Source: Cyanobacteria bacterium SIG29 (GTDB lineage: Bacteria; Cyanobacteriota; Vampirovibrionia; Gastranaerophilales; Gastranaerophilaceae). Taken from it: DNA of 64,000 bases. The notes beneath the pieces are model-generated. The model was not told where the DNA came from, searched no databases, and saw only the letters and a list, made by a program, of their open reading frames with translations. Each line of letters opens with the position of its first letter. The first letter of the stretch is position 1. The position numbers were made by a program, and so were the translations under genes. The stretch spans positions 62,001 to 126,000 of the forward strand of contig SUTV01000003.1 of the NCBI GenBank assembly GCA_015152515.1, written 5' to 3'. This document shows positions 3,384 to 33,003 of this stretch, in pieces.

Positions 3384-4085
3384 ATGAAACATCTTGTTGT
3401 AATTCCAACATACAATGAAATTGAAAACATAAAAGAAATTGTTGAAGAGATTTTTTCTCTTTACCCACAAGTAAATATTTTAGTTGTTGATGATTCTTCA
3501 CCAGATGGTACAGCTAATTTAGTAAAAGAACTACAAGAAAAGTTTTCACAACTTCATTTATTAATTCAAGAAAAAAAATCAGGTTTGGCAAAAGCTTATA
3601 TAAATGGTTTTAAATGGGGATTAAACAATAATTTTGAACTATTTACAACCATTGATGCAGATTTTTCACACCCTCCCAAAAGCATAGCAACAGCAATTGA
3701 ACTAATCAATACTGGATATGACTTTGCTTGTGGCTCAAGATATATGAAAAATGGTGGCACAACAGAAAAACATTGGTTTAGAAATTTAACTTCTGTTGGT
3801 GGCAATATATATGCAAACTTTATTTTAGGTAAAGAACTAAAAGATTGGACAGAAGGCTTTAATACATTTACAAAAGAAACTTTATCAAAAATAGATTTAG
3901 ACAAAATTAAATGCAAAGGCTACATTTTTCACGCAGAAATGAAATATAAAGCTATAAAAAAAGGTTGTAAGATATCTGAATTTCCTATATTTTTCAAAGT
4001 TAGAACAAAAGGGAAATCAAAAATGGATTATAAAATAATCATAGAAGCTCTTTTTAGTGTTATACAAATAAAACTAAGAAAATAA
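3384..4085 (+). CDS. Polyprenol (dolichol)-phosphate mannosyltransferase-like GT2 glycosyltransferase
   Basis: Transfers a sugar, typically mannose, from a nucleotide donor to a polyprenyl phosphate on the cytoplasmic face of the membrane. GT2 motifs are clear: VIPTYNE near the start, VVDDSSPDGT for nucleotide binding, the metal-binding TIDADFSHPP, and GSRYMKNGG. The spacing WTEGFNTF...GYIFHAEMKYKA is typical of DPM1 proteins. At 233 aa it is the catalytic domain only, without the C-terminal membrane spans found in many bacterial homologues. Its start has an aagga ribosome-binding site. Its end overlaps the convergent aminotransferase by 12 bp. Donor specificity cannot be read from sequence. 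Confidence 0.88.
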   Translation: MKHLVVIPTYNEIENIKEIVEEIFSLYPQVNILVVDDSSPDGTANLVKELQEKFSQLHLLIQEKKSGLAKAYINGFKWGLNNNFELFTTIDADFSHPPKSIATAIELINTGYDFACGSRYMKNGGTTEKHWFRNLTSVGGNIYANFILGKELKDWTEGFNTFTKETLSKIDLDKIKCKGYIFHAEMKYKAIKKGCKISEFPIFFKVRTKGKSKMDYKIIIEALFSVIQIKLRK

Positions 4086-5198
4086 TTTAATTATTTTATT
4101 TGAAATATATTCTAATTTTTCATCAGTCAAATTAAGACCTGTTGGAATATAAAAGCCTTTTTCATACAACATTTCAGATACTGGTCTTTTAATATCATCT
4201 AAAATCCCCAATTTTTCAAAAATTGGTTGTTTGTGCATTGGATAAAAAAATGGTCTAGTTTCAATATTTTCCTTTTTAAGAAATTCAATTGCATTTTTTG
4301 CTGTTAAATTATTCTTTTCATCAATAAGAACACCAAAAACCCAATAATGATTTTGTGCATAAGAAGTATTTTTTAAAGAAAGACTCGCAGGAATATCTTT
4401 CAATAATTTTTGATAAATATTTCCTATATATTGTTTTTTTTCAATTGTTTTATCTAATTTTTCAAACTGAGCATAAGCAACTGCTGCTTGAAGATTAGAC
4501 ATTCTTAAATTCCAACCGATTTCTTGATGAACAAATTTATCTGATGAAAAACACAAATTTTTATAATAATCTATTTTTTCCTTAATCTTTTCATTAGAAG
4601 TTAAAACAATACCACCCTCTCCGCACGCAATATGTTTATTTGTATAAAATGAGAATGTAGAAACATCACCAAATGAACCACATTTTTTGCCTTTATACTC
4701 TTGCCCATGAGCTTGCGCTGTATCTTCTATAATTTTTAAATCATATTTCTTTGCAATTCTAAGAATTTCATCAACATCAGAAGGAAGCCCATATATATGA
4801 ACAATCATAATAGCTTTTGTTCTTGAAGTTATAACTTCTTCTATTTTTGAAGTATCTATATTCCAAGTTTTATCTTCAGAATCTACAAAAACTGGTTTTA
4901 AATTATTATAAATACAACTTTGTGCACCAGAAATAATATTAAATGAAGGAATGATAACCTCATCATTATCTTCCCAATCGAAAACATCTTTCATTGCCTT
5001 TATAGCAACATCTAAAGCTGCACTACCATTAGTAACACAACTTCCATATTTTTGATTACAATATTGAGAAAACTCTGTTTCTAACTTTTGAACAAAAGGT
5101 CCATTTGAACCAATCCAACCAGAATCAATACATTGAGTCAAATATAATTTTTCATTTCCAGATAAATCCGGTTCAAATACACCAATGAAATCACTCAT
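4074..5198 (-). CDS. DegT/DnrJ/EryC1/StrS family sugar aminotransferase
   Basis: PLP-dependent aminotransferase of the nucleotide-sugar type, normally converting a keto-sugar nucleotide to an amino-sugar. The internal aldimine Lys is in SFYTNKHIACGEGG (around residue 188). Other family marks are TNGSAALDVA, the VHIYGLPSDVDEI loop, EDTAQAHG and GWNLRMSNLQAA. Length (374 aa) is standard. It overlaps the upstream cupin gene by 8 bp, so the two are an operon. Together with the nearby GT2 enzyme this suggests biosynthesis of an amino-sugar-containing glycan. Exact substrate unknown. Confidence 0.9.
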   Translation of the reverse strand: MSDFIGVFEPDLSGNEKLYLTQCIDSGWIGSNGPFVQKLETEFSQYCNQKYGSCVTNGSAALDVAIKAMKDVFDWEDNDEVIIPSFNIISGAQSCIYNNLKPVFVDSEDKTWNIDTSKIEEVITSRTKAIMIVHIYGLPSDVDEILRIAKKYDLKIIEDTAQAHGQEYKGKKCGSFGDVSTFSFYTNKHIACGEGGIVLTSNEKIKEKIDYYKNLCFSSDKFVHQEIGWNLRMSNLQAAVAYAQFEKLDKTIEKKQYIGNIYQKLLKDIPASLSLKNTSYAQNHYWVFGVLIDEKNNLTAKNAIEFLKKENIETRPFFYPMHKQPIFEKLGILDDIKRPVSEMLYEKGFYIPTGLNLTDEKLEYISNKIIKLFS

Positions 5199-5622
5199 TA
5201 ATTATCACCTTTTCATCTGAAATTTCTGCGAAACGTTCTTTATCATTAACGCCCAAATAAGGTCCTTGCTTTACTTCTATCATTGAAACATCTTCCAAAC
5301 ATTTCAAACCATGCCCACCATAAGCAAGAAAAACTATATCACCAGTTTCTAATATTGTACTTTCAATATATTCTTTTTCTTGAGAATATAAATCTAATCT
5401 CAATTTACCTTTTTTAATTATTAATGTTTCTTGTGTATGAGATACTTTTCTTTGTACTTTATTGTGAATATGTGCTTTAATCACAGCATTTTTCGGATGA
5501 CTCATATATGCAATTTGTTGAGCTGAATCATCTTGAGTGAAGAACTTAATACCCTCATTTGAATAACTATTTTTAATAACCAAAGCAATTTGTTTATTTT
5601 TATAATAAAAATTTTTAATCAT
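5191..5622 (-). CDS. Cupin-fold protein
   Basis: About 143 aa with a single cupin barrel: the first metal-box-like segment is IKAHIHNKVQRKVSHTQE, followed by KKGKLRLDLYS, LETGDIVFLAYGGHGL and VSMIEVKQGPYLG. Small cupins of this kind accompany nucleotide-sugar pathways as isomerases or regulators, but the reaction here is not evident. ATG 5622 is preferred because AAGG lies 6 nt upstream; a TTG at 5628 is the alternative. It is translationally coupled to the DegT aminotransferase (8-bp overlap). Confidence 0.75.
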   Translation of the reverse strand: MIKNFYYKNKQIALVIKNSYSNEGIKFFTQDDSAQQIAYMSHPKNAVIKAHIHNKVQRKVSHTQETLIIKKGKLRLDLYSQEKEYIESTILETGDIVFLAYGGHGLKCLEDVSMIEVKQGPYLGVNDKERFAEISDEKVIINE

Positions 5623-5703
5623 AATCAACCTTATAAACGAAAAATAATCAATAATTTTATTATATAATATTATTTGTAATTTTAAAAATATTTTAGAGGC
5701 AAA

Positions 5704-7086
5704 ATGAAAATATTATTTGTTATACCAAATTTTGATTCTTATGTATTAGCACCACCACTTGGCATTTTATGGTTATCTTCATATGCAAAAAAATATGCGA
5801 ATGCTGAGACAAAGATTGTTGACGCGTTAAGAGATAATCTTAGTACAAATGATATTATTAAAATTGCAAAAGAATATAATCCTGATTTAATAGGGATACA
5901 CTGTTTAACTGCGTTTTACAAACAAACAATTGAAACATCAAGAGCATTAAAAGAAGAAGGCTTTAAAATTTATATAGGCGGAGTTCACCCAACATTTATG
6001 CCTTATTCAACTTTAAAAGATAGCAATGCTGATTTTGTTGTATGTGGAGAAGGTGAAATTCCACTTTTAAAACTTTGCGAAAACAACTTTAACCATAAAA
6101 ATATTCAAGGGGTTTACGATTTAGAATCTTTAAAAGATGATGATACTCAAATTGATGGAGAACCAATTAAAAAAGCAGAAACCGTAATGGATTTAAATAC
6201 AATTCCAATGCCAGATTGGGAACAATTACCACCAATATCATACCCTCATTCTCCACACGCTGTAATTGCAAGAGGTAATCCAATTGGTATTGTTATGACT
6301 TCAAGAGGTTGCCCTAGCAGATGTACCTTCTGTTCATCTAACAATTTTTACAAAGGAATTAGACAACGTTCTGTTGAAAATGTAATTGAAGAAGTAAAAT
6401 ATCAAATTAAACATTTAGGCATAAGAGAATTACAATTTACTGATGATAATTTAACCCTAAAAAAAGAATATATCATTGAGCTATGTAATGCTTTATTAGA
6501 AAACGATATCAAGATTCCTTGGTCAACACCAAATGGAGTTAGAGCTGATAAAGTTGATAAAGAAGTATTAGATTTAATGAAAAAATCAGGTTGCTACCTA
6601 ATTGATTTCGGAATTGAATCAGCAAATAATCAAATTCTTAAAAACATTAGAAAAGGTGAAACAATTGAAGAAATTGATTTAGCAATTAATCTTGCAAGCG
6701 AAACAGGAATGATAACTCAAGGTAACTTTATCTTTGGTTTGCCTGGTGAAACAAAAGAAACAATGCAAGAAACTATAAACTATGCTGTAAATTCAAAATT
6801 AGATAGAGCTGGATTCTTTGCATTAAGACTTTTACCTGGTTCTGATTTATCAAGAACATTAAAAGAAAAATATGAATTTAATTATGACCATTCTTTCATT
6901 TCAAAACCGGATTGGTTACCTGAAAATTTAACAGAAGAAGAAATTTTAAGAACAATTCAAAAAGCATATTGGCAATTCTATTTTAGACCAAGAAGACTTT
7001 GGAATTTATTAAATGATATTCCAGTTTCACAAACAAAATACATTCTAAAAGCAATGATAAACTATCATTTATTTAAACTATGGTAA
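5704..7086 (+). CDS. B12-binding radical SAM protein
   Basis: 460 aa. Residues 1-140 form a cobalamin-binding-type Rossmann domain (PLGILWLSSYAKK, IGIHCLTAFY, IYIGGVHPTF, CGEGEIPLLKL). The radical SAM core has the cluster cysteines C203, C207 and C210 (CPSRCTFC), the LQFTDDNLTL strand, and the IDFGIESAN and GLPGETKETMQ motifs of the BchE/P-methylase-like group. Such enzymes methylate unactivated carbons or phosphorus, or form rings; the substrate here is unknown. It is distinct from the A/B-type array that follows. A ribosome-binding site agagg precedes the start. Confidence 0.88.
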   Translation: MKILFVIPNFDSYVLAPPLGILWLSSYAKKYANAETKIVDALRDNLSTNDIIKIAKEYNPDLIGIHCLTAFYKQTIETSRALKEEGFKIYIGGVHPTFMPYSTLKDSNADFVVCGEGEIPLLKLCENNFNHKNIQGVYDLESLKDDDTQIDGEPIKKAETVMDLNTIPMPDWEQLPPISYPHSPHAVIARGNPIGIVMTSRGCPSRCTFCSSNNFYKGIRQRSVENVIEEVKYQIKHLGIRELQFTDDNLTLKKEYIIELCNALLENDIKIPWSTPNGVRADKVDKEVLDLMKKSGCYLIDFGIESANNQILKNIRKGETIEEIDLAINLASETGMITQGNFIFGLPGETKETMQETINYAVNSKLDRAGFFALRLLPGSDLSRTLKEKYEFNYDHSFISKPDWLPENLTEEEILRTIQKAYWQFYFRPRRLWNLLNDIPVSQTKYILKAMINYHLFKLW

Positions 7087-7089: not shown

Positions 7090-8085
7090 TTATTTTTTAG
7101 AATAACCTTGTTTTAAAACTTGAGTTGTATATGGAGGGATTCCCAAATCCATATTATGTTCTTTACATGCTTTTTTAGCATAATCAACAATTTCATAATA
7201 ATGTTTTGGAATTGTAAAATCGCCATCAATAATATCACGATAGTCTATATCTAAAACGATTATTTTAACATTCAAATCAATCATTTTATCCATAAACATT
7301 TTAAATTCATTCAAATTATCATTATAACCATTAACAATAATGTATTTAATAATTATTGAATCATTACCCGCGACGCTAATATATTTTCTTATATTATCAA
7401 TTGATTTATCAAACTTATCTACTTGTTTTATTTTCAAATAAGTTTCTCTGCATCCAGAATCAAGAGCAGTACATAGTTCACCTTTTTTATTAGCCAAAAG
7501 CTGTTCAATAATAGGCATATATACAATATTATTTGTTGGAATGTAAATTGTTCCAACACCTCTTTTTAAGAAAGTTTCAATAATTTCTTGATGATTTTTA
7601 AGACAAGATATATTTCCACCTTGAAAATCTATATACAACTTTTCTTTATCAATCAAATCATTATCATAAAGCTCATTTATAAACTTTAAAACATCAAACA
7701 AAACTGGTTTATTAGCATCTTCTGCTATCTTTTCAAATGTTCTATTTCCTTGAGTGCAATAAACACACGCACAATTGCATTGAGTATAATGATTTAAAGT
7801 CATTTTATTTATTCTTAAATCATCAACTTGTTTATATGGTTGAAGATGTACACAATTCTTACATTCAGAAGGAATTTGACCATTTTTAAGCATTTTAATA
7901 AACTTCTTCTTATTTTCTAAAAAGCTTAAAATAGAATTTTTATTTGATAATTCACTGACAAAAGCAGGACCAATATTTGCGCTACAGCATGGTTCAAGCG
8001 CATTTCTACAAGAAAAATGCAAATGATTGTGCATCAATTCACACATATAAGATTTTTTCTTTTTAAATATATTTAAAAAATTCAT
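7090..8085 (-). CDS. Radical SAM protein, A-type, GGN variant
   Basis: 331 aa, first member of the array. A-type means: an N-terminal Cys box (one Cys near residue 5-15, a CC about 17 residues later, then C-x2-C before the core), followed by the SAM-cluster motif at residues ~95-110. Here these are CELMHNHLHF, EPCCS, SECKNC and CNCACVYC (C103/C107/C110). The SAM-binding GGE is replaced by FQGGNIS. The segment SGCRETYLKIKQVDKFD is the array-wide core signature. The leader MNFLNIFKKKKSY is unusual for A-type and resembles the TPR proteins' starts. It is divergent from the next gene across 55 bp holding both promoters. Confidence 0.9.
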   Translation of the reverse strand: MNFLNIFKKKKSYMCELMHNHLHFSCRNALEPCCSANIGPAFVSELSNKNSILSFLENKKKFIKMLKNGQIPSECKNCVHLQPYKQVDDLRINKMTLNHYTQCNCACVYCTQGNRTFEKIAEDANKPVLFDVLKFINELYDNDLIDKEKLYIDFQGGNISCLKNHQEIIETFLKRGVGTIYIPTNNIVYMPIIEQLLANKKGELCTALDSGCRETYLKIKQVDKFDKSIDNIRKYISVAGNDSIIIKYIIVNGYNDNLNEFKMFMDKMIDLNVKIIVLDIDYRDIIDGDFTIPKHYYEIVDYAKKACKEHNMDLGIPPYTTQVLKQGYSKK

Positions 8086-8140: not shown

Positions 8141-9133
8141 ATGAAAAAAAGATATTTTTGTAAAAGATTAAATGAAACTCTAAACTTTGATGCACTAAAA
8201 GTTTTTTATTGCTGTGCAACAAGAACTGGTCCATCTATTGATGTTCCTCAACCCAAAAGAATAAAAGATATTATTAAAAAGAGAAATTCTTTAATTAAAA
8301 TGTTAGATAGAGGTATTATTCCAACTGAATGCGAAGGTTGTTTTGATTTAGAAGAACAAAAAAATCCAAAGCCACTTTTTATTAGCCAACTATCTAAGCC
8401 ACAAAAAGCTAATTTAATAATCGTAAAACACTTTAAACAATGCGATTGCGCTTGTACATACTGTTGCGAACAATATTTATCTGGTAGAAAAATCGTACTA
8501 AAATCTAGAAAAAGCGATTATTATGATTTATTACCTATAATCAAAGAACTTTATAAACAAGATATGATTGATAAAAAAGAGTTAGATGTTCATTTTCAGG
8601 GCGGTAATGTGTCTGTTTTAGATGAATTTGAAGACTTAGTTAATATCTTTATGAAAAACGGAGTTAAACGCGTAGAAATCGCTACAAATGGCATTAAATA
8701 TTTACCTGCGATTGAAAGGATTTGTAATGATACTTTTGTAGATGTAAATATTTCAATTGACGCAGGCTCAAGAGAAACATATAAAAAAATAAAAACTGTT
8801 GATAAATTTGACGATTTAATTGAAAACTTAAAAAAATACGCAAAATTACCAATTTTATTAAGACTAAAATATATCCTAGTTCGCAATGTAAATGATACAA
8901 AAGAAGAACTAGAAAAATATATCAACTTAATGAAAGAAATTGGGATTACAAATTCTGAATTAATGATTGACCAATGCGATAATGAATTTATACAAAATGG
9001 AGAATTTAAAATTCCTGATTATTATTACGAATTATTTGAATTTTATAAAAATAAATGCCAAGAAAATAATATTGAAGCAAATATTTGGGAATATATTAAA
9101 GAAATATTAGACAAAGGCTCATTTTTCAAATAA
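8141..9133 (+). CDS. Radical SAM protein, A-type, GGN variant
   Basis: 330 aa. N-terminal Cys box: CKRLNETLNF, FYCCAT, TECEGC; SAM cluster CDCACTYC; SAM-binding loop FQGGNVSVL with Asn in place of Glu, as in its divergent neighbour. The core signature SIDAGSRETYKKIKTVDKFD and the RLKYILVRNVND strand are intact, so it looks functional. It is predicted to be translated from a leaderless mRNA. Its 3' end overlaps the convergent B-type gene by 15 bp. Substrate unknown. Confidence 0.9.
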   Translation: MKKRYFCKRLNETLNFDALKVFYCCATRTGPSIDVPQPKRIKDIIKKRNSLIKMLDRGIIPTECEGCFDLEEQKNPKPLFISQLSKPQKANLIIVKHFKQCDCACTYCCEQYLSGRKIVLKSRKSDYYDLLPIIKELYKQDMIDKKELDVHFQGGNVSVLDEFEDLVNIFMKNGVKRVEIATNGIKYLPAIERICNDTFVDVNISIDAGSRETYKKIKTVDKFDDLIENLKKYAKLPILLRLKYILVRNVNDTKEELEKYINLMKEIGITNSELMIDQCDNEFIQNGEFKIPDYYYELFEFYKNKCQENNIEANIWEYIKEILDKGSFFK

Positions 9134-10132
9134 ATTCTTTATTCTTTGGAAAAGACTTATCGGTTTTAATTCTTTAAAATAATCTGACAATATACAACTT
9201 TCATCCTTAAAAATTGGATTTTTTAAAAGTCTAACTAACTCATTATATTTTTCATGCGTTGGCAAAGACACATCTAATTTATTCATTAAATCATCAGATT
9301 CAATTTGTCTGTGATAATTAATAAAGAAAGCTACTGCATTATTATTCTTTGCAAATTTTACAAAATCTTTCATTTCTCTATAGTTTACAGAATTAACCAT
9401 AAAATTTAACTGTAAATGTTTAATATAACCTTGTTCTTTTAATTCAGATAAATATTTAACATTATCAACCAATGCTTTAAAATCACCACGTTCAACCAAT
9501 TTATTATATGTCTTTAAAGTTGTTGCATGTATTGAAATAATTACTGTATTTAATTTTTCTTTTAGTCCTATTTTTTCAATATTTTCTTTATTAAATAAAA
9601 TACCATTAGAAATAATATTAAACTTAATATTAGGGTTTATTTTTATAATCTTTTTTACAACTTCCATAGAATGTTTACTAGCAAATAATTCACCAGCCGA
9701 ATTCATTTCTACATATTCAGCTTGTTCTATTACAGGGGTAAAAATTCTATCAAAATTTTCTTCAATTCTTTTTTCTTTTTGTCTATTGTATTCTTCTTCT
9801 TCTTTGTTTTTTTCATTCCTACAAAAAATACAACGTACATTACAATGCCTATCATAACTAAATTCTATTTTTTTAGGATAAGGCGCAATATAATCAGGCT
9901 CAAATTCTTGCAAATAAGGGTCACAAACATCTAAATTACAATATTTATAATTATTTTCAATAAACTGTTTTCTAAATTCTTTTGCTTTTTCACCATTCCA
10001 TATTTCATCAAAAGTCTGTTCAAATATATTGCCAAATGAATAAAAATCAGTCCAATAACAACAACAACAATAAACTTCGCCTGTGTTTTGAATTTGAACA
10101 GTATTAAATGGATGTTTACATAGTTTAGCCAT
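9119..10132 (-). CDS. Radical SAM protein, B-type with N-terminal SPASM-like domain
   Basis: 337 aa. B-type means: a SPASM-like domain in front of the core, here C5, the cysteine run C22-C25, then FGNIFEQTFDEIWNGEKA, and C65/C70. The SAM cluster is CNVRCIFC (C97/C101/C104). GGE is replaced by MNSAGELFAS. The core continues with ISNGILFNKENIEKIG and IISIHATTLKTYNKLV. The end, LKPISLFQRIKNLFEK, is a short amphipathic tail shared by most B-types. A TATAAT lies 11 nt before ATG with no ribosome-binding site, so the leader is very short. Role unknown. Confidence 0.9.
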   Translation of the reverse strand: MAKLCKHPFNTVQIQNTGEVYCCCCYWTDFYSFGNIFEQTFDEIWNGEKAKEFRKQFIENNYKYCNLDVCDPYLQEFEPDYIAPYPKKIEFSYDRHCNVRCIFCRNEKNKEEEEYNRQKEKRIEENFDRIFTPVIEQAEYVEMNSAGELFASKHSMEVVKKIIKINPNIKFNIISNGILFNKENIEKIGLKEKLNTVIISIHATTLKTYNKLVERGDFKALVDNVKYLSELKEQGYIKHLQLNFMVNSVNYREMKDFVKFAKNNNAVAFFINYHRQIESDDLMNKLDVSLPTHEKYNELVRLLKNPIFKDESCILSDYFKELKPISLFQRIKNLFEK

Positions 10133-10217: not shown

Positions 10218-11207
10218 TTGAAGTACACAAGTTGTTCAAATATACAAAATGGAATTAGATTTGAATATAACAGCATAAAATTATGTTGTTTTATGGGGTC
10301 AAATACACCAGAACCTCTATATATTAAAAAAGATTACTATGGTGAAAAACTTAATTGGAAAGAAATAGTTGAAAATATAAAAACAATTAGAGAAAACCAA
10401 AGAAATGGAATTACTCCAAAAGAATGTATAGGATGTTTTGGACTTCAAAACCAAGAATGGGATGATAATCAAAAATTCAAATGGATTCAAATTGCTCACT
10501 GGTCTGAATGTAACTGTAATTGTACATATTGTTATAGACTTCAAGATACATTTGTAAAACCAAAAAAACGCTATAAAATTATGCCAATCATTAAAGAATT
10601 AGATAAAATGGGAATGATTGACTACAACGGAGAATTAGCATATTCAGGTGGAGAACCAGCAAGTCTAAGAGAATTTGATGATATAACAAATTTCTTCATC
10701 AAAAAAGGTGAAAAATTAATTATGGTTCACACAAACGCAATCAAACCTGTTAAATCTGTTTTAAATGGATTAAAAACAGATACAATGTCTGTTACAGCAA
10801 GCGTAGATTGCGGCGATAGAGAAAAATTTAAACAAATAAAACAAGTTGATGCGTATAATAAAGTTATGGATACCTTGAAAAAATATGTAAAAGCTCAAGG
10901 AAATGATAAAAAAATGGTGCGTTCTAAATTTATTTTGATTCCTAAAGTAAATGATACTGTTGAGGATGTCAATAAATGGTTGGATGAAAGTGAAAGAATT
11001 GGTATTCAACGTGTTATTTTAGATTTTGAAGCTGATTGGTTAGAACGTAATAAACATAATATTCCAGAACATATAAATGACTTATATTCATATATATGTG
11101 ATTCAACAAAACATAGAGGGCTGGACTTGCAATTTTATGGTGTTGCAACACAATATAGAGAACTAAAAGGTCTTAATGTTGATGGATATGGTTTACATCA
11201 AGAGTAG
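10218..11207 (+). CDS. Radical SAM protein, A-type, GGEP
   Basis: 329 aa, TTG start supported by aaaggag 7 nt upstream. It shows the A-type pattern clearly: C6, C23-C24, C70/C73 in the N-terminal box, and SAM cluster C98/C102/C105 (CNCNCTYC). GGE is canonical (SGGEPASL). Core signature: SVDCGDREKFKQIKQVDAYN and SKFILIPKVNDTVEDV. Four upstream cysteines could hold one auxiliary Fe-S cluster, as in twitch-domain enzymes such as BtrN, but here on the other side of the core. Followed after 38 bp by another A-type gene on the same strand. Confidence 0.9.
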   Translation: MKYTSCSNIQNGIRFEYNSIKLCCFMGSNTPEPLYIKKDYYGEKLNWKEIVENIKTIRENQRNGITPKECIGCFGLQNQEWDDNQKFKWIQIAHWSECNCNCTYCYRLQDTFVKPKKRYKIMPIIKELDKMGMIDYNGELAYSGGEPASLREFDDITNFFIKKGEKLIMVHTNAIKPVKSVLNGLKTDTMSVTASVDCGDREKFKQIKQVDAYNKVMDTLKKYVKAQGNDKKMVRSKFILIPKVNDTVEDVNKWLDESERIGIQRVILDFEADWLERNKHNIPEHINDLYSYICDSTKHRGLDLQFYGVATQYRELKGLNVDGYGLHQE

Positions 11208-11245: not shown

Positions 11246-12229
11246 ATGTCAGAAAAATTATATTTTTGTGAAGAATTGAATGAAACATTAACATGTTTTC
11301 ACGATAAAATAACTTCTTGTTGCAGCAGTCCTAATGGTCCAATATATGTTGAAAATTATAATGGAAAAAATTTAGATTTTAAAATATTGAATGAGAAGAA
11401 ACAAGAATTTTTTTCTCTATTTAATGAGGAAAATATTAAAAAATCTCCTTGTTTTGGATGTTTTTCATTGAGAGAAAGAAAAACAGAAGATGTTATTACA
11501 AATAAGTATAAGATGATTCATATTTCACATTGGACACATTGTAATTGTGGTTGTATATATTGTGCTCGAATGAAGGATTCAAAGGGGAAAATCACTACTA
11601 AAAAAGCAAAAAGTGAATATTATGATATGTTGCCTGTTGTTAAACAATTATATAAAAATGATCTTCTAGACAAAGAAAATCTTATTGCTTGTATACAAGG
11701 TGGTGATATATCTGTTTTAAAAGAATTTGATAAGCTAGTTAAGGAATTTTTAAAACAAGGTATAAAGCAGTTTTATTTTTTATCTAATAATATTAATTAT
11801 CAGCCAATTATAAAAAAATTACTTGATATAAACAAAGCAAGCTTTACTACATCTTTGGATTGTGCAAGTAGAGAACTTTATTATAAATTAAAAAGAGTGG
11901 ATAAATTTGAGGAAAGTGTAAAAAATCTAAGAAAATATGCAAAAGGAAATCAAAATCCACCAATAACTGTAAAATATATTGTTGTAGAACATTTAAATGA
12001 TAACATTCAAGAAATGAAGAATTTTATTGATTTAATTCAAAGCATTGGTATAAAAAACATTGAATTTATGATCGATAATAAATATGTTCTATGTGATCAC
12101 ACAAAAGTTCATATTCCAAAACATTACGGTGAGTTATACCTTTTCTTTAAAGAATATTGTAAAAAACAAAATTTAAACTTTATTATTTGGGATAAAGTTG
12201 AGTTTTTGATAAATAAATATTTATTATAA
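11246..12229 (+). CDS. Radical SAM protein, A-type, GGD variant
   Basis: 327 aa. Box: CEELNETLTCF, TSCCSS, SPCFGC; SAM cluster CNCGCIYC; SAM loop IQGGDISVL (Asp replacing Glu). It is the closest paralog of the protein at 20534-21520, sharing long identical stretches such as NISHWT/HISHWT...CNCGCIYCARM and KHYGELYL, which implies a recent duplication. Core signature SLDCASRELYYKLKRVDKFEE. The next strong features are convergent genes on the minus strand. Function unknown. Confidence 0.9.
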   Translation: MSEKLYFCEELNETLTCFHDKITSCCSSPNGPIYVENYNGKNLDFKILNEKKQEFFSLFNEENIKKSPCFGCFSLRERKTEDVITNKYKMIHISHWTHCNCGCIYCARMKDSKGKITTKKAKSEYYDMLPVVKQLYKNDLLDKENLIACIQGGDISVLKEFDKLVKEFLKQGIKQFYFLSNNINYQPIIKKLLDINKASFTTSLDCASRELYYKLKRVDKFEESVKNLRKYAKGNQNPPITVKYIVVEHLNDNIQEMKNFIDLIQSIGIKNIEFMIDNKYVLCDHTKVHIPKHYGELYLFFKEYCKKQNLNFIIWDKVEFLINKYLL

Positions 12230-12298
12230 TTTTAATCCACTCTTCTTTTTTAAAAATTAACGAGATTCAAATAAAAATAAGATATTTTGTTTTATCTG

Positions 12299-12589
12299 CT
12301 ATGTCATTAGAACAGAATTGTTTAAATTTATAGCATTATCTATGTATAATAGTGCTTCTTTATAGTTCTTTGTATCTTTATATATTAACGCTTTTGTAAC
12401 CCAATACATATCGTTATTTTGTTCTAAATCAATTGCTTTGTTAATATATTCTATTGATTGTTCGAAATTTTTAAGTTTTCTATTTGTTTCAGCTTTTAAT
12501 GCAAAACCAATTGGCATATCTAGTATTTCTACGGTATGCACTTTTATTTCTTTCTTTTTAAAAAGCATTTTACTAATAAAATTAAACAT
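12299..12589 (-). CDS. Small TPR-repeat protein
   Basis: 96 aa. The N-terminus MFNFISKMLFKKKE is a Lys/aromatic leader, followed by two TPR units (FALKAETNRKLKNFEQSIEYI, then ALIYKDTKNYKEALLYI) with the usual small/aromatic spacing. TPRs mediate protein-protein contacts. It is one of three similar small TPR genes scattered through the radical SAM array (others at 28407 and 35181), all with the same promoter layout, suggesting an adaptor or scaffold role. It ends abruptly after the second repeat (AINLNNSVLMT). Confidence 0.8.
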   Translation of the reverse strand: MFNFISKMLFKKKEIKVHTVEILDMPIGFALKAETNRKLKNFEQSIEYINKAIDLEQNNDMYWVTKALIYKDTKNYKEALLYIDNAINLNNSVLMT

Positions 12590-12595
12590 AGCTTG

Positions 12596-12601
12596 ATTAT
12601 A
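12596..12601 (-). promoter_or_regulatory. -10 box of a leaderless promoter for the TPR gene
   Basis: On the minus strand TATAAT is followed by 6 nt (caagct) and then the ATG at 12589. No ribosome-binding site fits. The layout is the same as at 28395 and 35169. Confidence 0.6.
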
Positions 12602-12687
12602 TACTATTGAATAGAAAAATAAAAGTTATTTTATAATGTAAGATTTTATGGAGTATTGTGATTTTTTGTTTTTGCAATATTACAGTA

Positions 12688-13731
12688 TTATTTTTGTTTT
12701 AGAAACTTTTTTAAATAGTACAAGATTGTTTTATTTTGATAATTTTGTAAAATCAGTTTTGGATTGATTCTTGGTTCAAAATTACAAATGTCTGATAGTA
12801 ATTCTTTTTTATTTAAATGCTTAAGAAAATCTTTATATAAAGGGTTATCTTTTTCAAATACAGCTAGTTCTTTATATTTTTTTGCAAGAGTTGTATGTTC
12901 CCAAGGTTGATAACAAGTATAATTTACATTTACATTAAATTTTTGTGCTATTTTCGCCATTTTTGCCATTTCTTTATAGTTATATTTTGCAATAACCATA
13001 TTTATAAAAATTGAAGAGATATATCCATTTTTCTTTTCTTCAGCAATAAACTTAAGATTTTCCATAACAGCTGAAAAATTTCCTTTGCAAACAATTTTAT
13101 TATATGTTTTCTGTGTTGCTCCTGGTATAGAAATTCTTATATCTTTAATTTTCCCTCTTAAATTTAATTCTTCATATAAATTTTTTGTTAACAAAATTCC
13201 ATTTGTATCTATTTCAAAAAGAATTTTAGGATAATTGTTCGTAACAAATTTTATAAAATCAATACCATTTTTACTAGCAAAAACATCACCAGCTACACTT
13301 AATTGAATTATTTCTACATTATCAAGTAATGGAATTATTTTTTTTGTAATTTCCTCTTGTTTGCCAGAAAATGTAACTTTGATTTCATCCCTACAAGTTT
13401 TACAAGCGACATTACAAACTGTATCATAAGCTAAGCGCAAAAACTTGCAATTTCGATTTTCATTCCATTGATGAAGAACCAATTCTTTTTCTTTAAAAAC
13501 AGAACTAATACACATATCTTTATTACACAAAGAATAGTCATTATTAAGAATTTTTTCTCTAAATAAATTTGCTTTTTCAGAAAGCCATACTTCTTGAAAA
13601 TCATTTTTTAATAAATTTCCAAATGAAAAAAAATCAACGAATCTTGGACAACAAGGATATACATTTCCATCCTCAGATATTTCGGCCATATAAAAGGGCA
13701 TATAACAAACTTTATTATTTTCTGAAAACAT
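12688..13731 (-). CDS. Radical SAM protein, B-type, divergent
   Basis: 347 aa from the preferred ATG at 13731, which has gagg 8 nt upstream; the frame itself opens at 13800. SPASM-like box: CYMPFYMAEISEDG, YPCCPR, FFSFGNLLKNDFQEVWLS, then CNKDMC. The SAM cluster is CNVACKTC, spaced normally but with Thr where an aromatic residue is usual. GGE reads VAGDVFAS. The core has IDTNGILL and ISIPGATQKTYNKIV. It lacks the LKPIS tail and ends instead in Lys/Tyr/Leu-rich TILYYLKKFLKQK. Most divergent of the B-types. Confidence 0.87.
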   Translation of the reverse strand: MFSENNKVCYMPFYMAEISEDGNVYPCCPRFVDFFSFGNLLKNDFQEVWLSEKANLFREKILNNDYSLCNKDMCISSVFKEKELVLHQWNENRNCKFLRLAYDTVCNVACKTCRDEIKVTFSGKQEEITKKIIPLLDNVEIIQLSVAGDVFASKNGIDFIKFVTNNYPKILFEIDTNGILLTKNLYEELNLRGKIKDIRISIPGATQKTYNKIVCKGNFSAVMENLKFIAEEKKNGYISSIFINMVIAKYNYKEMAKMAKIAQKFNVNVNYTCYQPWEHTTLAKKYKELAVFEKDNPLYKDFLKHLNKKELLSDICNFEPRINPKLILQNYQNKTILYYLKKFLKQK

Positions 13732-13892
13732 AAGCAACCTCAAATAAATCAAGATTTTTTCACTATTTGTTTTATCAATTGAAAAAATCCACATCAACAA
13801 ATCTTAACATATTTTTATTATATACCATTACAAAAACTTGTAAATAAATTCATTAAAATTGTCAGAAATACGGTTTAATGAATAAAGTATAT

Positions 13893-14930
13893 TTAAACAG
13901 ACAAAACCTTTTTAAAGTTATTTTTTAAACTTTCAATAAAAGAAATTGGTTCAAGTGCAACAAAATAATCATGCCCTTGAATAACTACATCTTTTGCATT
14001 TAAAAACTCAGGTGTATGTACTAATTTTACCAATTTATTATAATCAGGATGTTTTTTATCTTGAATATTGATTTCATTATAAAGTTTCTCTAAATCACGA
14101 GAACAATCAAGACCTAAAAAACGAACTTTTGCGTCAATTTTTCGGCACAATTTAATAATATCAATCATTTCCATATAATTTATACTAGTAACTGTAAAAT
14201 GGATTTCAAATCTATCCATTTCACCTTTTTTCTTTAATTCTGATAAATACTCAATGTTTTTAATTACTTGTTTATAATTTCCACCTTTAACAATCTTATT
14301 GTAAGTTTTTTCACTATATGAGTGAAGAGAAACTGTCATCATAGAAATTTTGCCACTAAGCCCAAGTTTTTCAATATTTTCTTGAGTACATTGAATTCCA
14401 TTTGTAATTAATTCAAACTTAATATTTGGGAAATTATTAGCAATATCACGAATCAAATCTCTTGAAATTTTGCTTGCGAAAACTTCTCCAACAGCATTAG
14501 TTTTAACATATTTCGCATTTTGAAGCCAAGGTGTCAAAATTTCAAGCAATTTATCTTCTTTATCTTTTGGTATCAAATTTGTATTAATTTTATAATTTTC
14601 ACCACGACAAAAAATACATTTTACATCGCAAAATTCATCAAGTCCAAGTAAAATACGCTCTGGTGGAGCACTAAGTAATTGTGGTTTTGAATCAGAAATT
14701 TTTTCTAAAATCTCTAAATTTTGACAACCAGGACATAGCGAAAAATCATTATCATATAATTTTTGTCTAAATTCTTTTGCTTTTTCACCATTCCATATTT
14801 CATCAAAAGATTGTTCAAATATATTGCCAAATGAATACCCTCTAATCCAGCCACAACTGCAAGGATAAACATTACCATAAGGCATAATTTCTGCCAAAAT
14901 ATATGGGTTTGGACAATATATATGCGTCAT
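13893..14930 (-). CDS. Radical SAM protein, B-type
   Basis: 345 aa. SPASM-like box: CPNPYILAEIMPYG, YPCSCGW, YSFGNIFEQSFDEIWNGEK, then C-x2-C (CPGC), shorter than in the other B-types. SAM cluster CDVKCIFC; GGE replaced by NAVGEVFAS. Core: ELITNGIQCTQENIEKLG, SLHSYSEKTYNKIV. The tail LEPISFIESLKNNFKKVL is the shared amphipathic end. It begins 2 bp after the A-type gene at 14933-15916, so an A-type and a B-type are co-transcribed here. No separate ribosome-binding site is evident, suggesting coupling. Confidence 0.9.
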   Translation of the reverse strand: MTHIYCPNPYILAEIMPYGNVYPCSCGWIRGYSFGNIFEQSFDEIWNGEKAKEFRQKLYDNDFSLCPGCQNLEILEKISDSKPQLLSAPPERILLGLDEFCDVKCIFCRGENYKINTNLIPKDKEDKLLEILTPWLQNAKYVKTNAVGEVFASKISRDLIRDIANNFPNIKFELITNGIQCTQENIEKLGLSGKISMMTVSLHSYSEKTYNKIVKGGNYKQVIKNIEYLSELKKKGEMDRFEIHFTVTSINYMEMIDIIKLCRKIDAKVRFLGLDCSRDLEKLYNEINIQDKKHPDYNKLVKLVHTPEFLNAKDVVIQGHDYFVALEPISFIESLKNNFKKVLSV

Positions 14931-14932: not shown

Positions 14933-15916
14933 TTATCTACCGTTATCTATGTATCTAATTACTTTTGTATAACCACATGCAGAAAGAATTTCTCTATATG
15001 ATAAATTACACTTATGAGAATGTGCATAATCTTCAACAAGTTTAATATATTCTTTTACATGTTCTGGACAATATTTGTTTTGTTCATACCAATGATGTTC
15101 AAGCTCTAATTGAATATTAGTAATTCCCAAATCTTCAACTAACTTTAACCAAGCAGTAATTTCTTCTAAAGTATCATTATAACCTGGCACAAATATAAAT
15201 TTAAGGCTTACCAAACTAGCCGTAATAGGGTCTAAACCTTTTTTATATTTTTTTACATTTTCAACAACACGCTTAAACCAATCAACTTTTTTGATTTTTT
15301 TATAAGTTTCCCTAGTACCAGCATCAAGTGAAATTGTAACCGCTGTTCTTCTTAATTCAATAGCTTTTCTAATCCATTTAGAATAATCAAAAGCAGCAGT
15401 ATTAATCATAATAAAAATATTAGTATTTTCTAAGAAGAACTTCATCAAATCTGGAAATTCTTTTAATACAGTTGGCTCACCACCTGTAATATTAACGTTA
15501 CCGTTATAACTTAACATATTTTGTTTTAAAGCATCTTTTAATACAGGAAGGATTTTCCAAGGTTTTAAGGAATTTAAAAATTTCTTTTGTTCATGAGTAT
15601 GGCAATAAATACAATCCAATGGACAATTTTCCCAATGGTTAATTAAAATATATTTTAATTGCATTGAGCCATCCCAATCTTTAACTTTTAAACTAGGACA
15701 TCCCTCACAAATTTTAGGAATATCACCTTTTGCAAATCTATCACGATATTCTTGTTTTATTTGTCTAATTTTATCCCAATCAAATAATTCACCTTTATAA
15801 TCTTCAATGATTTTAATAGCTTCAAATTTCATGCACATTGAATAACTACAAAGAACAGCTGCATCTCTTATAAAGCACATACCATTTTCAACAAACTCAC
15901 AAGATAAATATCCCAT
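14933..15916 (-). CDS. Radical SAM protein, A-type, GGEP
   Basis: 327 aa with a strong ribosome-binding site (aaggag). Box: CEFVENGMCF, CSYSMC, KICEGC; SAM cluster CPLDCIYC, which lacks the extra middle Cys common in A-types; canonical loop TGGEPTVL. Core signature SLDAGTRETYKKIKKVDWFK and LKFIFVPGYNDTLEEI. First gene of a pair with the downstream B-type gene. Confidence 0.9.
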   Translation of the reverse strand: MGYLSCEFVENGMCFIRDAAVLCSYSMCMKFEAIKIIEDYKGELFDWDKIRQIKQEYRDRFAKGDIPKICEGCPSLKVKDWDGSMQLKYILINHWENCPLDCIYCHTHEQKKFLNSLKPWKILPVLKDALKQNMLSYNGNVNITGGEPTVLKEFPDLMKFFLENTNIFIMINTAAFDYSKWIRKAIELRRTAVTISLDAGTRETYKKIKKVDWFKRVVENVKKYKKGLDPITASLVSLKFIFVPGYNDTLEEITAWLKLVEDLGITNIQLELEHHWYEQNKYCPEHVKEYIKLVEDYAHSHKCNLSYREILSACGYTKVIRYIDNGR

Positions 15917-15963: not shown

Positions 15964-16971
15964 TTATGTTTTAGAAAACCTATATTTTAAGCGTTTAAAT
16001 ATACTTATTGGTTTTAAATTAAGCATTGTATCATTGATTGTACATATATCTGAACGAAAAATCGGATTTTTCAATACACGAACAAAATCATTAAATTTAG
16101 GATGTTTTTCATCAAAAATATTGATTTCATCATAAACTTCTTCATTCGTTTCCATTTTTAAAAGTTCTAAAAAGCCAACAGTAGCACCGATTTTTTGAGC
16201 CAATTTCATATATGAAACCATTTGCTTATAATTGTGTGAATTAACAACAAAATTTAAAATAAATCTATTTAATATACCTTGTTTTTTCAATTCAGAAAGA
16301 AAATTTAAATTTTCCATAACCTTATCAAAATTTCCATTAACAACTAACTTATCATATGTTTCTTTTTTAGTTGCATGTAATGAAATTGTAATAGAAATTA
16401 ATTTATCTAAAATTCCCAATTCTTCAAGATTTTTTCTATCACACAAAATACCATTAGAAATCAACGAAAACCTTACTTTTGGGAATAATTCAGTAATTCT
16501 TTTAATTAATTTTCGAGAATGAGGGCTAAATAAAGCTTCGCCAACACCAGATAATACCACATTTTCAGCATTTTCTAGCATATTTAAAATTATTTCATCC
16601 ATATTTTCATTAAAATATGACAAATCTTGCTTTTGATGGCAACTTCTACAGAAAATACATTTCACATTACAAGTTGCATCATAACAAAAAATAAAAGTTT
16701 TTGGTTTTGGCACAACTTCAGTTGGAATAATATTTTGAGAACAATCTTTTACACACAAATCAAGATTACAAATATCATATTTTTTTTCAATAAATTGGCG
16801 TCTTAATTTTTTAGCCTTCTCCCCATTCCAAATCTCATCAAAAGACTGTTCATAAATATTTCCTAAAGAATATGAATTACACCAAGGAGGACAACAAACA
16901 AAAACTTCTCCCTGCATACTAATTTGTGCAGAATCAAATGGAAATGTACATATTGCATATTCTGTTGTCAT
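15964..16971 (-). CDS. Radical SAM protein, B-type
   Basis: 335 aa from ATG 16971, chosen because GGAGG lies 4 nt upstream; the longer frame to 16998 is not needed. SPASM-like box: CTFPFDSAQISMQG, FVCCPPW, YSLGNIYEQSFDEIWNGEK, CNLDLC. SAM cluster CNVKCIFC. The GGE position reads LSGVGEALFS. Core: SLISNGILCDRKNLEELG, ITISLHATKKETYDKLV. Tail LKPISIFKRLKYRF. Divergent from the A-type gene at 17054. Confidence 0.91.
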   Translation of the reverse strand: MTTEYAICTFPFDSAQISMQGEVFVCCPPWCNSYSLGNIYEQSFDEIWNGEKAKKLRRQFIEKKYDICNLDLCVKDCSQNIIPTEVVPKPKTFIFCYDATCNVKCIFCRSCHQKQDLSYFNENMDEIILNMLENAENVVLSGVGEALFSPHSRKLIKRITELFPKVRFSLISNGILCDRKNLEELGILDKLISITISLHATKKETYDKLVVNGNFDKVMENLNFLSELKKQGILNRFILNFVVNSHNYKQMVSYMKLAQKIGATVGFLELLKMETNEEVYDEINIFDEKHPKFNDFVRVLKNPIFRSDICTINDTMLNLKPISIFKRLKYRFSKT

Positions 16972-17022
16972 ATTACCTCCACTTATTAGAATATACAAAA
17001 TAGCAAAATATGTCTATTTTGA

Positions 17023-17053: not shown

Positions 17054-18079
17054 ATGAGATATAAATGTTGTAAACATATTTTAGGAAGCATAGATTTAAG
17101 TTTTGATGGGTTTAAATATTGTAATGAAGTATGGGAAGGACCAGAATACATACATTACTCAGAAGAAAACTCTTTTCAAAAAAACGAAGAAAGACGTTTA
17201 AAAATAATTGAAGAAATGAAAAATGGAATCATTCCAGAAAAATGCAAACTATGCCCTATTCTAGAAGAAAAAGATTGGAATGAATTTGATGGAAAAATTC
17301 ATAAAATCACCATATTTAATTGGAAACACTGCAATGCTGCTTGTTTTTATTGTAGCGTACATTCTGATTTTTATGAAGATGTAAAGAAAAGTGATAATTA
17401 TGATTCTCTTCCATATATTGAAAAATTGATTAAAGAAGGAAGATTAACCGCAAATACTTATATTGATTTTATGGGTGGAGAACCAACAATGCTTGAAGAA
17501 TTTCCACAAATTGTAAAACTTCTTTTATCTCAAAATTGCAGGCTTGAAGTTTTAACAAATGGAATCAAATATGAAAGCGTTATTGGTGAAATGCTAAAAG
17601 CAGGAAATCACAATTCAATTTGTATTTCATTAGACTGTGGTACAAAAGAAGCATACAAAAGAATTAAAAGAGTTGATAAATTTGAAGAAGTTTCAGCAAC
17701 AATTAAAAAATATATAAATGATGCAAAAGAAAATGCAAACAGAATAAAAGTAAAATACATCATATTCCCAAATGTTAATGATAACAAAAAAGAGATTGAT
17801 GCTTTCTTTGATTTCTGCAAATCCACAGGAGTTAAAACTGTATCTAGAGCTGTTAACCATATTGAAAGCAAAATGAACACAACAAAAAACCAAGCCATTG
17901 AAGCAAATGTTATTAAATCTTACAAATATTTTGAAGAACAAGCAAAAAAACGAGGATTTGACTTGCTAGCAGAACCTTGGGCTGATGCAATTGTAGAAAA
18001 CAAAATTTATAACTGCAGAAAAGTATCACCATTAATAAAATTGAAATCAAAACTTCATTTTTTATTTGGTGGCAAATAA
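17054..18079 (+). CDS. Radical SAM protein, A-type, GGEP
   Basis: 341 aa. The N-terminal box is reduced: CCKHILGSIDLSF, then a single Cys (KYCNEV) and EKCKLC. SAM cluster CNAACFYC; loop MGGEPTML. Core signature SLDCGTKEAYKRIKRVDKFEE and VKYIIFPNVNDNKKEI. The basic end (LIKLKSKLHFLFGGK) resembles the amphipathic tails of the B-types. It abuts the convergent gene at 18080 with no gap; a possible terminator hairpin lies inside that gene. Confidence 0.9.
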   Translation: MRYKCCKHILGSIDLSFDGFKYCNEVWEGPEYIHYSEENSFQKNEERRLKIIEEMKNGIIPEKCKLCPILEEKDWNEFDGKIHKITIFNWKHCNAACFYCSVHSDFYEDVKKSDNYDSLPYIEKLIKEGRLTANTYIDFMGGEPTMLEEFPQIVKLLLSQNCRLEVLTNGIKYESVIGEMLKAGNHNSICISLDCGTKEAYKRIKRVDKFEEVSATIKKYINDAKENANRIKVKYIIFPNVNDNKKEIDAFFDFCKSTGVKTVSRAVNHIESKMNTTKNQAIEANVIKSYKYFEEQAKKRGFDLLAEPWADAIVENKIYNCRKVSPLIKLKSKLHFLFGGK

Positions 18080-19438
18080 TTAAAACTCAATTTTTGAAAG
18101 TTTAATCATTTTTTTATACTTATTTTTTAACCTATTAATTTTAAATAAATTTAATAGGTTATTTTTCCCTTTTAAATACACAATATTTGAATAACTTGTT
18201 TTAACAATTTCATCTAAAATAGGGGAAGAAATATAATTTTTGATTTCGATATCGAAATCAAATCCCAAACGCAAAATTGTTTTTAATTTATCTGCTTCAT
18301 TATCTAAAACCGGCTTAGAAATAGTCATTTTTACTCTGCGTTTTGGTGAAAACTCTTCATTTCTAACTAATTCATCAATTTTATTTTCAACAAAATCTTC
18401 AAAGTTTATATTTGAATACTTAAATTTATCTATACAAGCAACTTGTTGTTCATATATTTTTTTAGCCCTATTCATAAACGCCAAATATGATGTCACTTTA
18501 ATATTATATTTTTCAGCAAATCTTTCTGTATAATCTAACATTCTAAGTGTTCTATTAACATATTTTTTATTTTCACAATGTTCTGAAGATGATACACTAT
18601 GTTCTGAATCAAATTGAACTTCAACATATCCTTGTTTATGACAATTCTCAAGCCAAGCTTCAATTTCAAAAGCACTATCATTATAATTAGCAAACAAAAT
18701 GAATTTAGAAATTACAAAATTCTTTTCTTTTGCATGTTTCAAATATGTCGCCATATTTTTTTGAACTATATCAAAAAATTTCGTTCCTTTTACTTTTTCA
18801 AAAGTTTCTTTAGTACCAGAATCTACACTTGCAACAATAGCGGCAGCAGGAACTTTCTCTAACGCTTTGCACAAACTTTTTGACAAACGAATGCCTGATG
18901 TTGGCACATAAATTTCAGGCACATTATTTTTAGAGAATAAATCAACAAGCCAATCAAATTCTTTCATTAATGTTGGTTCACCACCAACAAAACGCAAAGA
19001 ACCATCATATCTTAATAAATTTTTCTCTAATAATTCTTCAACAATTGGTTTCATATCAACATCTTGTTCACGATTATGGCAATCTGGAATCCTACCAATA
19101 GGACAATAAACACATCTAGAATTACATTTCATAATATGACCAGCTGTTAAATGATTTATATAATCATCATCATCCCAATCACGTTCTACTAGTTCAAAAC
19201 AGCCATCACATTGCGAAGGATATATGCCTTTTTTAGCATTTTCTCTTAATTTTCTTTTTTCCTCAAAAATATAATCCCAACTTAAAGTTTGGTTTTTTAA
19301 ATCAGAATATAAATATAATCTATCAGGAAGTTCTAAATTATCAGTATTACAGCAATGTCCAACACAAAGTTGTTTAGAGCCAGGGTCTAAATAAAAATAA
19401 ATTCCATGTTCTAATAATCTACAACTCTTATATCTCAT
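18080..19438 (-). CDS. Radical SAM protein, A-type, long form with C-terminal extension
   Basis: 452 aa, about 120 longer than its paralogs. Box: CRLLEHGIYF, C-VGHCC (three cysteines), SQCDGC; SAM cluster CNSRCVYC; loop VGGEPTLM. Core: SVDSGTKETFEKVKGTKFFD. After residue ~330 comes a unique region (NFEDFVENKIDELVRNEEF, KPVLDNEADKLKTILRLGF) with a basic end, FKINRLKNKYKKMIKLSK, which I do not recognise. No clear ribosome-binding site; a TATAAT lies 18 nt upstream. Convergent with, and abutting, the gene at 17054. Confidence 0.88.
   Translation of the reverse strand: MRYKSCRLLEHGIYFYLDPGSKQLCVGHCCNTDNLELPDRLYLYSDLKNQTLSWDYIFEEKRKLRENAKKGIYPSQCDGCFELVERDWDDDDYINHLTAGHIMKCNSRCVYCPIGRIPDCHNREQDVDMKPIVEELLEKNLLRYDGSLRFVGGEPTLMKEFDWLVDLFSKNNVPEIYVPTSGIRLSKSLCKALEKVPAAAIVASVDSGTKETFEKVKGTKFFDIVQKNMATYLKHAKEKNFVISKFILFANYNDSAFEIEAWLENCHKQGYVEVQFDSEHSVSSSEHCENKKYVNRTLRMLDYTERFAEKYNIKVTSYLAFMNRAKKIYEQQVACIDKFKYSNINFEDFVENKIDELVRNEEFSPKRRVKMTISKPVLDNEADKLKTILRLGFDFDIEIKNYISSPILDEIVKTSYSNIVYLKGKNNLLNLFKINRLKNKYKKMIKLSKIEF
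18129..18160 (+). terminator. Hairpin inside the convergent gene, possible terminator for 17054-18079
   Basis: A perfect 10-bp stem AACCTATTAA / TTAATAGGTT with a 12-nt loop is followed on the plus strand by ATTTTT. It lies 50 bp past the plus-strand stop, within the C-terminal codons of the minus-strand gene. Confidence 0.45.
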
Positions 19439-19521: not shown

Positions 19522-20526
19522 ATGGGAAAGATGTATAGATGTAGATATTTGGCACACGGTCTTTATATTCATTATGACTGTTTTAGACATTGCCACCTTT
19601 CTATACATTCACCAAACGAAAGAAACAATAACTATATCGTCCCATACACTGGACCAAAAGATAAAGCTGATTGGGATACAGTTTTTGCAACAAAAAATAA
19701 ATTGGTTAAAGAAATGAGAGAAGGCGAAATTCCTCCATTTTGTAAAGGCTGCCATTGGATAGAAGAATTTGACGAAAATTCAAGCGAACAATTTTTATCA
19801 GACTTTGATAATTACCTTGATATGCTTTGGATTGGACATACAAACGAATGTAATGCAAATTGCATATATTGTTTTTCTTTCCAAGAAATTTTAGAAAATA
19901 GAACAGTAAAAGGATATGATATTTTTCCTTTATTCAAAGAATTATTAGATAAAAAAATCTATAATTTAGAAAAAGCCCCAAATGCACATATTTCATTTGC
20001 AATGGGCGAACCGACAATCATGAAAAATTTTGATGATATCATTAAAATTTTTGCTCAATACGGAAACAAACACTTTGCACTTTATACAAATGGTATAAAA
20101 ACAAGTAAAATGGTGTTAAACGTACTTAAAAGAGAAGATGTTGATATTAGAATTGTTATTTCTCTTGATGCAGGAAGTAGAGAAGTTTTCAAAAAAGTAA
20201 AAAAAGTTGATAAATTCAAAGAAACTTGCAATACGATAAAAGACTATGCAAAAGCAGCGAAAAATCCTCTTGGTTTAGGAGTCAAATATATCATCATTCC
20301 TAACGTTAATGATACAAAAGAAGAAATAGATAGATGGTATGACCTTTGTACAAAGCAACTTGGAGTAAAATATATCATTGCAGATGTCGAAGAGAAATGG
20401 TTTGTAAGACAAAATGGCGAAGTACCAGAATATGTAAAAGACCTTTTAAAATACATTAGACAAAAAAGTTTAGATGATAATATTGCTTTTGAATTTTATG
20501 ATAGAGCTTTAGTATTAAACTTATAG
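19522..20526 (+). CDS. Radical SAM protein, A-type, AMGEP variant
   Basis: 334 aa. Promoter TGA-TATAAT (box at 19489-19494) and ribosome-binding site agagg. Box: CRYLAHGLYIHYDCFRHCHLS, with single rather than paired Cys, then PFCKGC. SAM cluster CNANCIYC. The first Gly of the SAM loop is changed (FAMGEPTIM). Core: SLDAGSREVFKKVKKVDKFKE and VKYIIIPNVNDTKEEI. Followed after 7 bp by the A-type gene at 20534, so they form an operon. Confidence 0.9.
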   Translation: MGKMYRCRYLAHGLYIHYDCFRHCHLSIHSPNERNNNYIVPYTGPKDKADWDTVFATKNKLVKEMREGEIPPFCKGCHWIEEFDENSSEQFLSDFDNYLDMLWIGHTNECNANCIYCFSFQEILENRTVKGYDIFPLFKELLDKKIYNLEKAPNAHISFAMGEPTIMKNFDDIIKIFAQYGNKHFALYTNGIKTSKMVLNVLKREDVDIRIVISLDAGSREVFKKVKKVDKFKETCNTIKDYAKAAKNPLGLGVKYIIIPNVNDTKEEIDRWYDLCTKQLGVKYIIADVEEKWFVRQNGEVPEYVKDLLKYIRQKSLDDNIAFEFYDRALVLNL

Positions 20527-21520: not shown

Positions 21521-21528
21521 ATTTAAGC
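21511..21528. terminator. Small hairpin spanning both stop codons of a convergent pair
   Basis: GCTTAAA (21511-21517) pairs with TTTAAGC (21522-21528) across a 4-nt loop. It includes the end of the radical SAM gene and the gmd stop. The T-tract is poor, so it may only be a weak bidirectional stop. Confidence 0.4.
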
Positions 21529-25572: not shown

Positions 25573-25717
25573 TTTAAATACTACCAATTTGACTAATCAA
25601 TTAAATTGTAAACAAGTATATAACATACCATTACAAAACTTCTAAAACTATCATTTTTTATTTATTATAACAAAAAATTATAAATCCAACAATTTTCTTT
25701 TTTCATAACAAAAACCT

Positions 25718-28400: not shown

Positions 28401-28406
28401 AAAATT

Positions 28407-32941: not shown

Positions 32942-33003
32942 TATACCTTCCATACCGTTAACTAAAACCATATCACAAATTAATAATTTAACTTCTTTCA
33001 TTT

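Follow-up and report, generated by a model that had tools for sequence, protein, structure and literature searches.

Auxiliary-cluster domains of the SPASM and twitch kinds are described as lying C-terminal to the radical SAM core (PMC9012708), and reviews treat them as C-terminal extensions; the annotation models at NCBI already hold the reversed order. A SPASM domain with two clusters carries seven cysteines in the pattern CX9-15GX4C-gap-CX2CX5CX3C-gap-C, and in a twitch one cysteine stands before a β-hairpin, one after it and two past the helix (PMC6231123). BtrN (PDB 4m7s/4m7t), a radical SAM dehydrogenase from the butirosin pathway, has a single four-cysteine twitch; its auxiliary [4Fe-4S] cluster, ligated by four Cys, is of very low potential and probably serves as electron acceptor (PMC9012708). 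The reversed order is found in NCBIfam NF033640 (N_Twi_rSAM), where the profile places the twitch at about 4-71 and the core at 107-310, and in a member above the family cut-off from another genome of the phylum, which has four cysteines, a SPASM match at 297-366 and the core at 422-579. The profile and its accepted member have it, and viral proteins match the two types over their full length (see below), so that the reversed order is known to annotators; neither “N-terminal SPASM” nor “N-terminal twitch” occurs as a term in the open-licence papers searched. The auxiliary cluster of LipA is likewise bound N-terminal to the core. Unlike the proteins described below, LipA has a CX4CX5C motif, no twitch hairpin and helix, and sulfur-donor chemistry.

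The window analysed here is a stretch of 64,000 nucleotides on contig 1 of a genome of 1.54 Mb, 82.5% complete. The relatives of its focal gene that bear names all belong to Candidatus Gastranaerophilales, including Candidatus Avigastranaerophilus faecigallinarum; the Gastranaerophilales are gut-dwelling, non-photosynthetic kin of the Cyanobacteria. The region from 7090 to 41853 contains 26 short radical SAM genes, 19 of a kind called A-type and 7 of a kind called B-type; a further radical SAM gene, of the B12 type, is found at 5704. The focal gene at 10218-11207 (+) is an A-type of 329 aa (PF04055, E 9.6e-13) with a TTG start codon and AGGAG upstream. The first-pass annotation had described a cysteine box of both types at 10218-10535, which corresponds to residues 1-106 of the focal ORF. 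An A-type box is indeed found there, formed by C6 (codon 10233-10235), C23 (10284-10286, followed by C24), C70 (10425-10427) and C73 (10434-10436), within a twitch-like N-terminal domain of residues 1-88 (10218-10481) that was delimited from sequence, alignments and AlphaFold secondary structure. The radical SAM core motif C98-x3-C102-x2-C105 (CNCNCTYC) follows at 10509-10532, and with the box at residues 5-75 and the core at about 98 the order is not the C-terminal placement of the literature. The B-types lie outside that span, at 9119-10132 (-), 12688-13800 (-), 13893-14930 (-), 15964-16998 (-), 36470-37483 (-), 38565-39653 (-) and 39730-40824 (+). An extra Cys within the core motif (CxCxCxxC), as in the focal protein, occurs in 48 of 102 A-types, and B-types are without it.

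It is clear from the alignment that the N-terminal box precedes the core in all 26 short radical SAM ORFs, as had been claimed, its four columns being Cys in 26, 26, 25 and 26 proteins. The one exception is 29906-30913 (-), where the third box Cys is shifted one residue earlier (CX3C). The other A-types beyond the focal gene lie at 7090-8085 (-), 8141-9133 (+), 11246-12229 (+), 14933-15916 (-), 17054-18079 (+), 18080-19438 (-, with a C-terminus longer by about 120 residues), 19522-20526 (+), 20534-21520 (+), 24556-25587 (-), 27343-28332 (-), 28913-29896 (-), 30924-31922 (-), 31958-33001 (-), 33004-34053 (-), 34071-35063 (-), 35501-36493 (+) and 40879-41853 (+). Three small TPR proteins are scattered among these genes, at 12230-12687 (-), 28392-28892 (+) and 35031-35495 (+). 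Orthologs of the focal protein are 74-86% identical to it in 14 of 15 loci, the remaining locus being a partial match. Because the cysteines are kept in A-type paralogs that share only 22-34% identity with the focal protein, chance can be ruled out as the origin of the box.

The same pattern holds in a wider set of 148 non-redundant proteins from congeners and outgroups. The four box positions are Cys in 100, 100, 100 and 101 of the 102 A-types, outgroups included, and the first three in 45, 45 and 45 of the 46 B-types, where the fourth stands in a CX2C (12 proteins) or a CX4C (33 proteins). The pair C65/C70 that had been assigned to the B-types thus fits those with CX4C, but 13893-14930 has C66/C69. 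Residues other than the box cysteines are mostly variable. The spacing between the cysteines is 16/46/2 in the focal A-type, 17/41/2 in the B-type, 17/44/2 in BtrN and 17/46/2 in the accepted N_Twi_rSAM member, and outgroup relatives of the A-type mostly show 16/39-48/2; overall the box spacing is 16-17/39-51/2, which is not the CX4CX5C of LipA. Both types carry the CX3CX2C core motif and the Radical_SAM domain or fold of the superfamily, the deviants being 27343-28332, with the core motif CSICDCFYC (C95-x4-C100-x2-C103, extra C98), and L020:5023-6024.

One mostly concerted loss of the box was seen among the 148 proteins. In L007:6747-7625, a relative of the A-type, none of the four box cysteines is left and the core is retained; conversely, L020:5023-6024 retains the four box cysteines and has lost core cysteines, and the B-type L029:600-1643 retains the box and has lost two core cysteines. 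The box therefore acts as one unit apart from the core. Judged from their sequences, L020:5023-6024 and L029:600-1643 may be auxiliary-cluster-only proteins.

The claim of an auxiliary-cluster domain (a twitch, or half of a SPASM domain) ahead of the core held for the B-types by sequence and for the A-types by spacing and predicted topology. Residues 5-73 of the three B-types scanned match the Pfam SPASM profile PF13186, with E 2.8e-13 for 9119-10132 (residues 5-66), 1.6e-15 for 13893-14930 (residues 6-70) and 6.7e-10 for 39730-40824. The SPASM-like motif that had been noticed in the B-types, FGNIFEQSFDEIWNGEKA, was found at 13893-14930 (-), and residues 4-75 of this protein align to the C-terminal twitch of BtrN (167-241), four Cys included, at E 1.5e-5; hhalign gave 96% for the B-type box against BtrN. 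By sequence, then, the B-type box is a SPASM/twitch half-domain. The scanned A-types gave no match to the PF13186 profile at E<=1, and four well-spaced cysteines including a CX2C could hold another metal, as in a structural zinc site or a rubredoxin-like knuckle; with the B-type box matching SPASM by sequence and the spacing agreeing with that of the ligands in BtrN and the N_Twi_rSAM member, we regard a box without an Fe-S cluster as very improbable.

For the A-types the assignment is suggested by spacing and predicted topology, their sequence similarity to known twitches being weak. The AlphaFold models have high confidence (pLDDT 90.7 and pTM 0.88 for A, 91.1 and 0.87 for B), and the A model runs strand, C6, hairpin (12-16/19-21), C23, helix (47-62), C70 and C73, similar to the succession of Cys, hairpin, Cys, helix and Cys pair in the B model. 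In both models the predicted order is the published order of the twitch, and this order, together with the concerted loss described above, agrees with a clustering of the box cysteines. Searches of the PDB by fold covered mostly the core, the aligners being sequential and blind to a permuted domain, and for the same reason it is uninformative that BtrN is not among the PDB fold matches listed.

Common ancestry of the two boxes, which had been proposed from the equal spacing, is plausible but falls short of proof. The best hhalign probability of the A box against the B box was 33% (1 of 200 column shuffles equally good), against BtrN 11% (5 of 200) and against the N_Twi_rSAM member 2% (4 of 200). 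Such weak A-B and A-BtrN similarity could mean that the A box is convergent, an A-type with a PFL-AE/MoaA-like core and a B-type with a SPASM-like core having gained four-Cys N-terminal domains separately, and the best family matches of the A-type and B-type cores do differ in profile searches. We consider this somewhat unlikely, as the order of the cysteines is the same, the spacing nearly equal, both boxes N-terminal and the genes interleaved, only one shuffle in 200 equalled the A-B score, and the two models have viral matches in common along their length. The further proposal that A derives from B by reduction does not agree with the data: the A box equals or exceeds the B box in length (C1-C2/C2-C3 medians 16/45 for A and 17/41 for B), which rules out A as a shortened B, and what the N-terminal profiles share is a weak signal.

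Of the one or two extra Fe-S clusters that had been predicted, one fits the four ligands. A full SPASM domain with two clusters is ruled out by the four conserved Cys outside the core in the 148 proteins; because four and not seven SPASM cysteines are present, there is room for one auxiliary cluster. That cluster could have an open iron site at rest and bind substrate as in MoaA, instead of accepting electrons, since A-type cores score against MoaA models and a conserved fourth Cys may not ligate, as in SkfB (PMC6231123). We find this quite improbable, the four Cys being near-invariant like those of the fully ligated BtrN.

Compared with the described systems, the A- and B-types share with N_Twi_rSAM the four-Cys twitch first and the core second. 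Their scores against NF033640 range from 17 to 59 bits (best B 59.2, best A 26.6) and lie far below the cut-off of 170, and they are families distinct from it; furthermore, the N_Twi_rSAM member carries a fused sulfotransferase domain and has an aminotransferase domain after it, whereas the A- and B-types are stand-alone proteins in dozens of copies. BtrN has one four-Cys twitch, as here, but at the C-terminus, and its sequence is otherwise unlike theirs overall. The SPASM enzymes anSME, PqqE, SuiB and CteB share the barrel fold, and the B-type N-terminus matches their PF13186, but they have the opposite domain order and the A- and B-types hold 4 of the 7 SPASM cysteines. Full-length matches to both models were given by the viral radical SAM proteins A0A6J5LJC9 and A0A6J5L3D5 (BFVD) and Q6WHP4 of Vibrio phage KVP40, the B model superposing on A0A6J5LJC9 with TM 0.73 over 338 columns; these predicted likenesses are to single, uncharacterised phage genes 11-24% identical to the A- and B-types. 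An origin from phage was considered and rejected, as tblastn gave no match, though the viral fold matches exist. In the open papers searched no description was found of the A- and B-families or of their genus-specific expansion. Being compact (about 330 aa) and confidently folded, they are suitable cases for asking if domain order affects the place or potential of an auxiliary cluster.

Greater interest attaches to the expansion and to its glycan context. Model searches gave about 36 credible A-types and 8 B-types in this genome, together about 44, a count that omits weak cross-hits, and the 1.5-Mb genome has 77 Radical_SAM matches, some 44 of them of the A/B kind. Congeners mostly have 17-47 A matches, two having one. 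Across the phylum sample an A match at E 1e-20 was found in 16 of 292 genomes, with at most 2 copies outside the genus, and B-types in 6 of 292, all within this genus. Many A and B copies stand alone among housekeeping genes.

Others belong to a cassette whose order is kept in congeners. It starts with a glycosyltransferase family 2 gene (GT2) at its left edge (3384-4085, +; dolichol-phosphate-mannose-synthase-like by eye), a DegT/DnrJ/EryC1 aminotransferase (4074-5198, -; E 7.5e-105), a small protein that is cupin/FdtA-like by eye only and without Pfam match (5191-5628, -) and a B12-binding radical SAM protein without the N-terminal box (5704-7086, +). It continues as A, A, B, A, B, A, B, A, A, A, A, a GDP-mannose 4,6-dehydratase family gene (21523-22539, -; E 3.9e-114) and A; the A-types at 7090, 8141, 14933, 17054, 18080, 19522, 20534 and 24556 are among its members. 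Cassette genes are about 61-88% identical among congeners, and insertions and rearrangements occur. Single-pass membrane proteins, not seen in the window, lie inside congener cassettes (L056:1425-2342, L060:11913-12782, L062:17255-18295 and L062:18288-19208). For the focal orthologs dN was 0.09-0.16 and dS 1.2-1.7 in 6 of 8 comparisons, dS being saturated (4.6) or undefined in the other two; where dS is measurable, dN/dS is thus about 0.1, which indicates purifying selection. The paralogs are old ones maintained by selection and not recent noise.

The best explanation of these observations, to which we assign a probability of about 0.5, is that the proteins are twitch oxidoreductases akin to BtrN, acting on surface-glycan sugars by oxidation or epimerisation; its architectural part is strong, and substrate and chemistry are put forward with more reserve. 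The box would be an N-terminal twitch-type domain holding one [4Fe-4S] cluster, with Cys ligands placed one before and one after the β-hairpin and two past the next helix. The core cluster (C98/C102/C105) would cleave SAM, and the 5'-deoxyadenosyl radical would abstract H from a substrate C-H bond. The auxiliary cluster may then accept an electron from the substrate radical, or tune that radical, the overall result being a dehydrogenation or epimerisation as put forward for BtrN; this chemistry is projected from the domain by analogy. A different position would be modified by each paralog, and the substrates would most likely be surface-glycan sugars, or their activated or lipid-linked precursors, comparable to the sugar-like substrate of BtrN.

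Outside the genus, neighbours of A-type relatives include NeuB, a polysaccharide pyruvyl transferase (PS_pyruv_trans) and GT2, other relatives lying among unrelated genes. A GT2 and a radical SAM domain are joined in a single protein (L045:7265-9382), and a fusion of radical SAM and hexapeptide transferase (L041) adjoins PGA_cap. Sugars are favoured as substrates because of these outgroup loci and fusions and of the sugar-nucleotide genes in the cassette; it counts against them that the cassette has few glycosyltransferases relative to the number of radical SAM genes, and that so many copies stand by themselves among housekeeping genes. An N-terminal twitch with one cluster could also serve RiPP-like maturases or modifiers of cell-envelope proteins, given that most characterised SPASM/twitch enzymes act on peptides, that several small TPR proteins lie within the array, and that SuiB, SkfB and PFL-activating enzyme are among the top PDB entries matching the A model by fold, a likeness that comes from the shared barrel. 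We consider peptide or protein substrates unlikely: the array gaps held no candidate precursor-peptide ORF, only one TPR ORF, no RRE-like domain was noticed, and the gene context and fusions are glycan-related.

The expansion suggests that gut bacteria have a large body of radical chemistry, as yet uncharacterised, whose targets are probably sugars. It may even be, though we think it rather doubtful, that a single genus has built up an assembly line in which about 44 N-terminal-twitch radical SAM enzymes per genome, their twitch shifted from behind the barrel to in front of it, each carry out an oxidation or epimerisation of their own on one surface glycan with unusual modifications.

Two further arrangements were observed. 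In another genome of the phylum (L053 / L070) one large protein combines a sulfotransferase with an N-terminal-twitch radical SAM and the first part of a class III aminotransferase, and a second N_Twi_rSAM copy is close by. The genome analysed here also carries, at L019 (G000:C5:99000-115999), a tandem row of seven similar radical SAM genes (568-581 aa) whose N-termini look B12-type.
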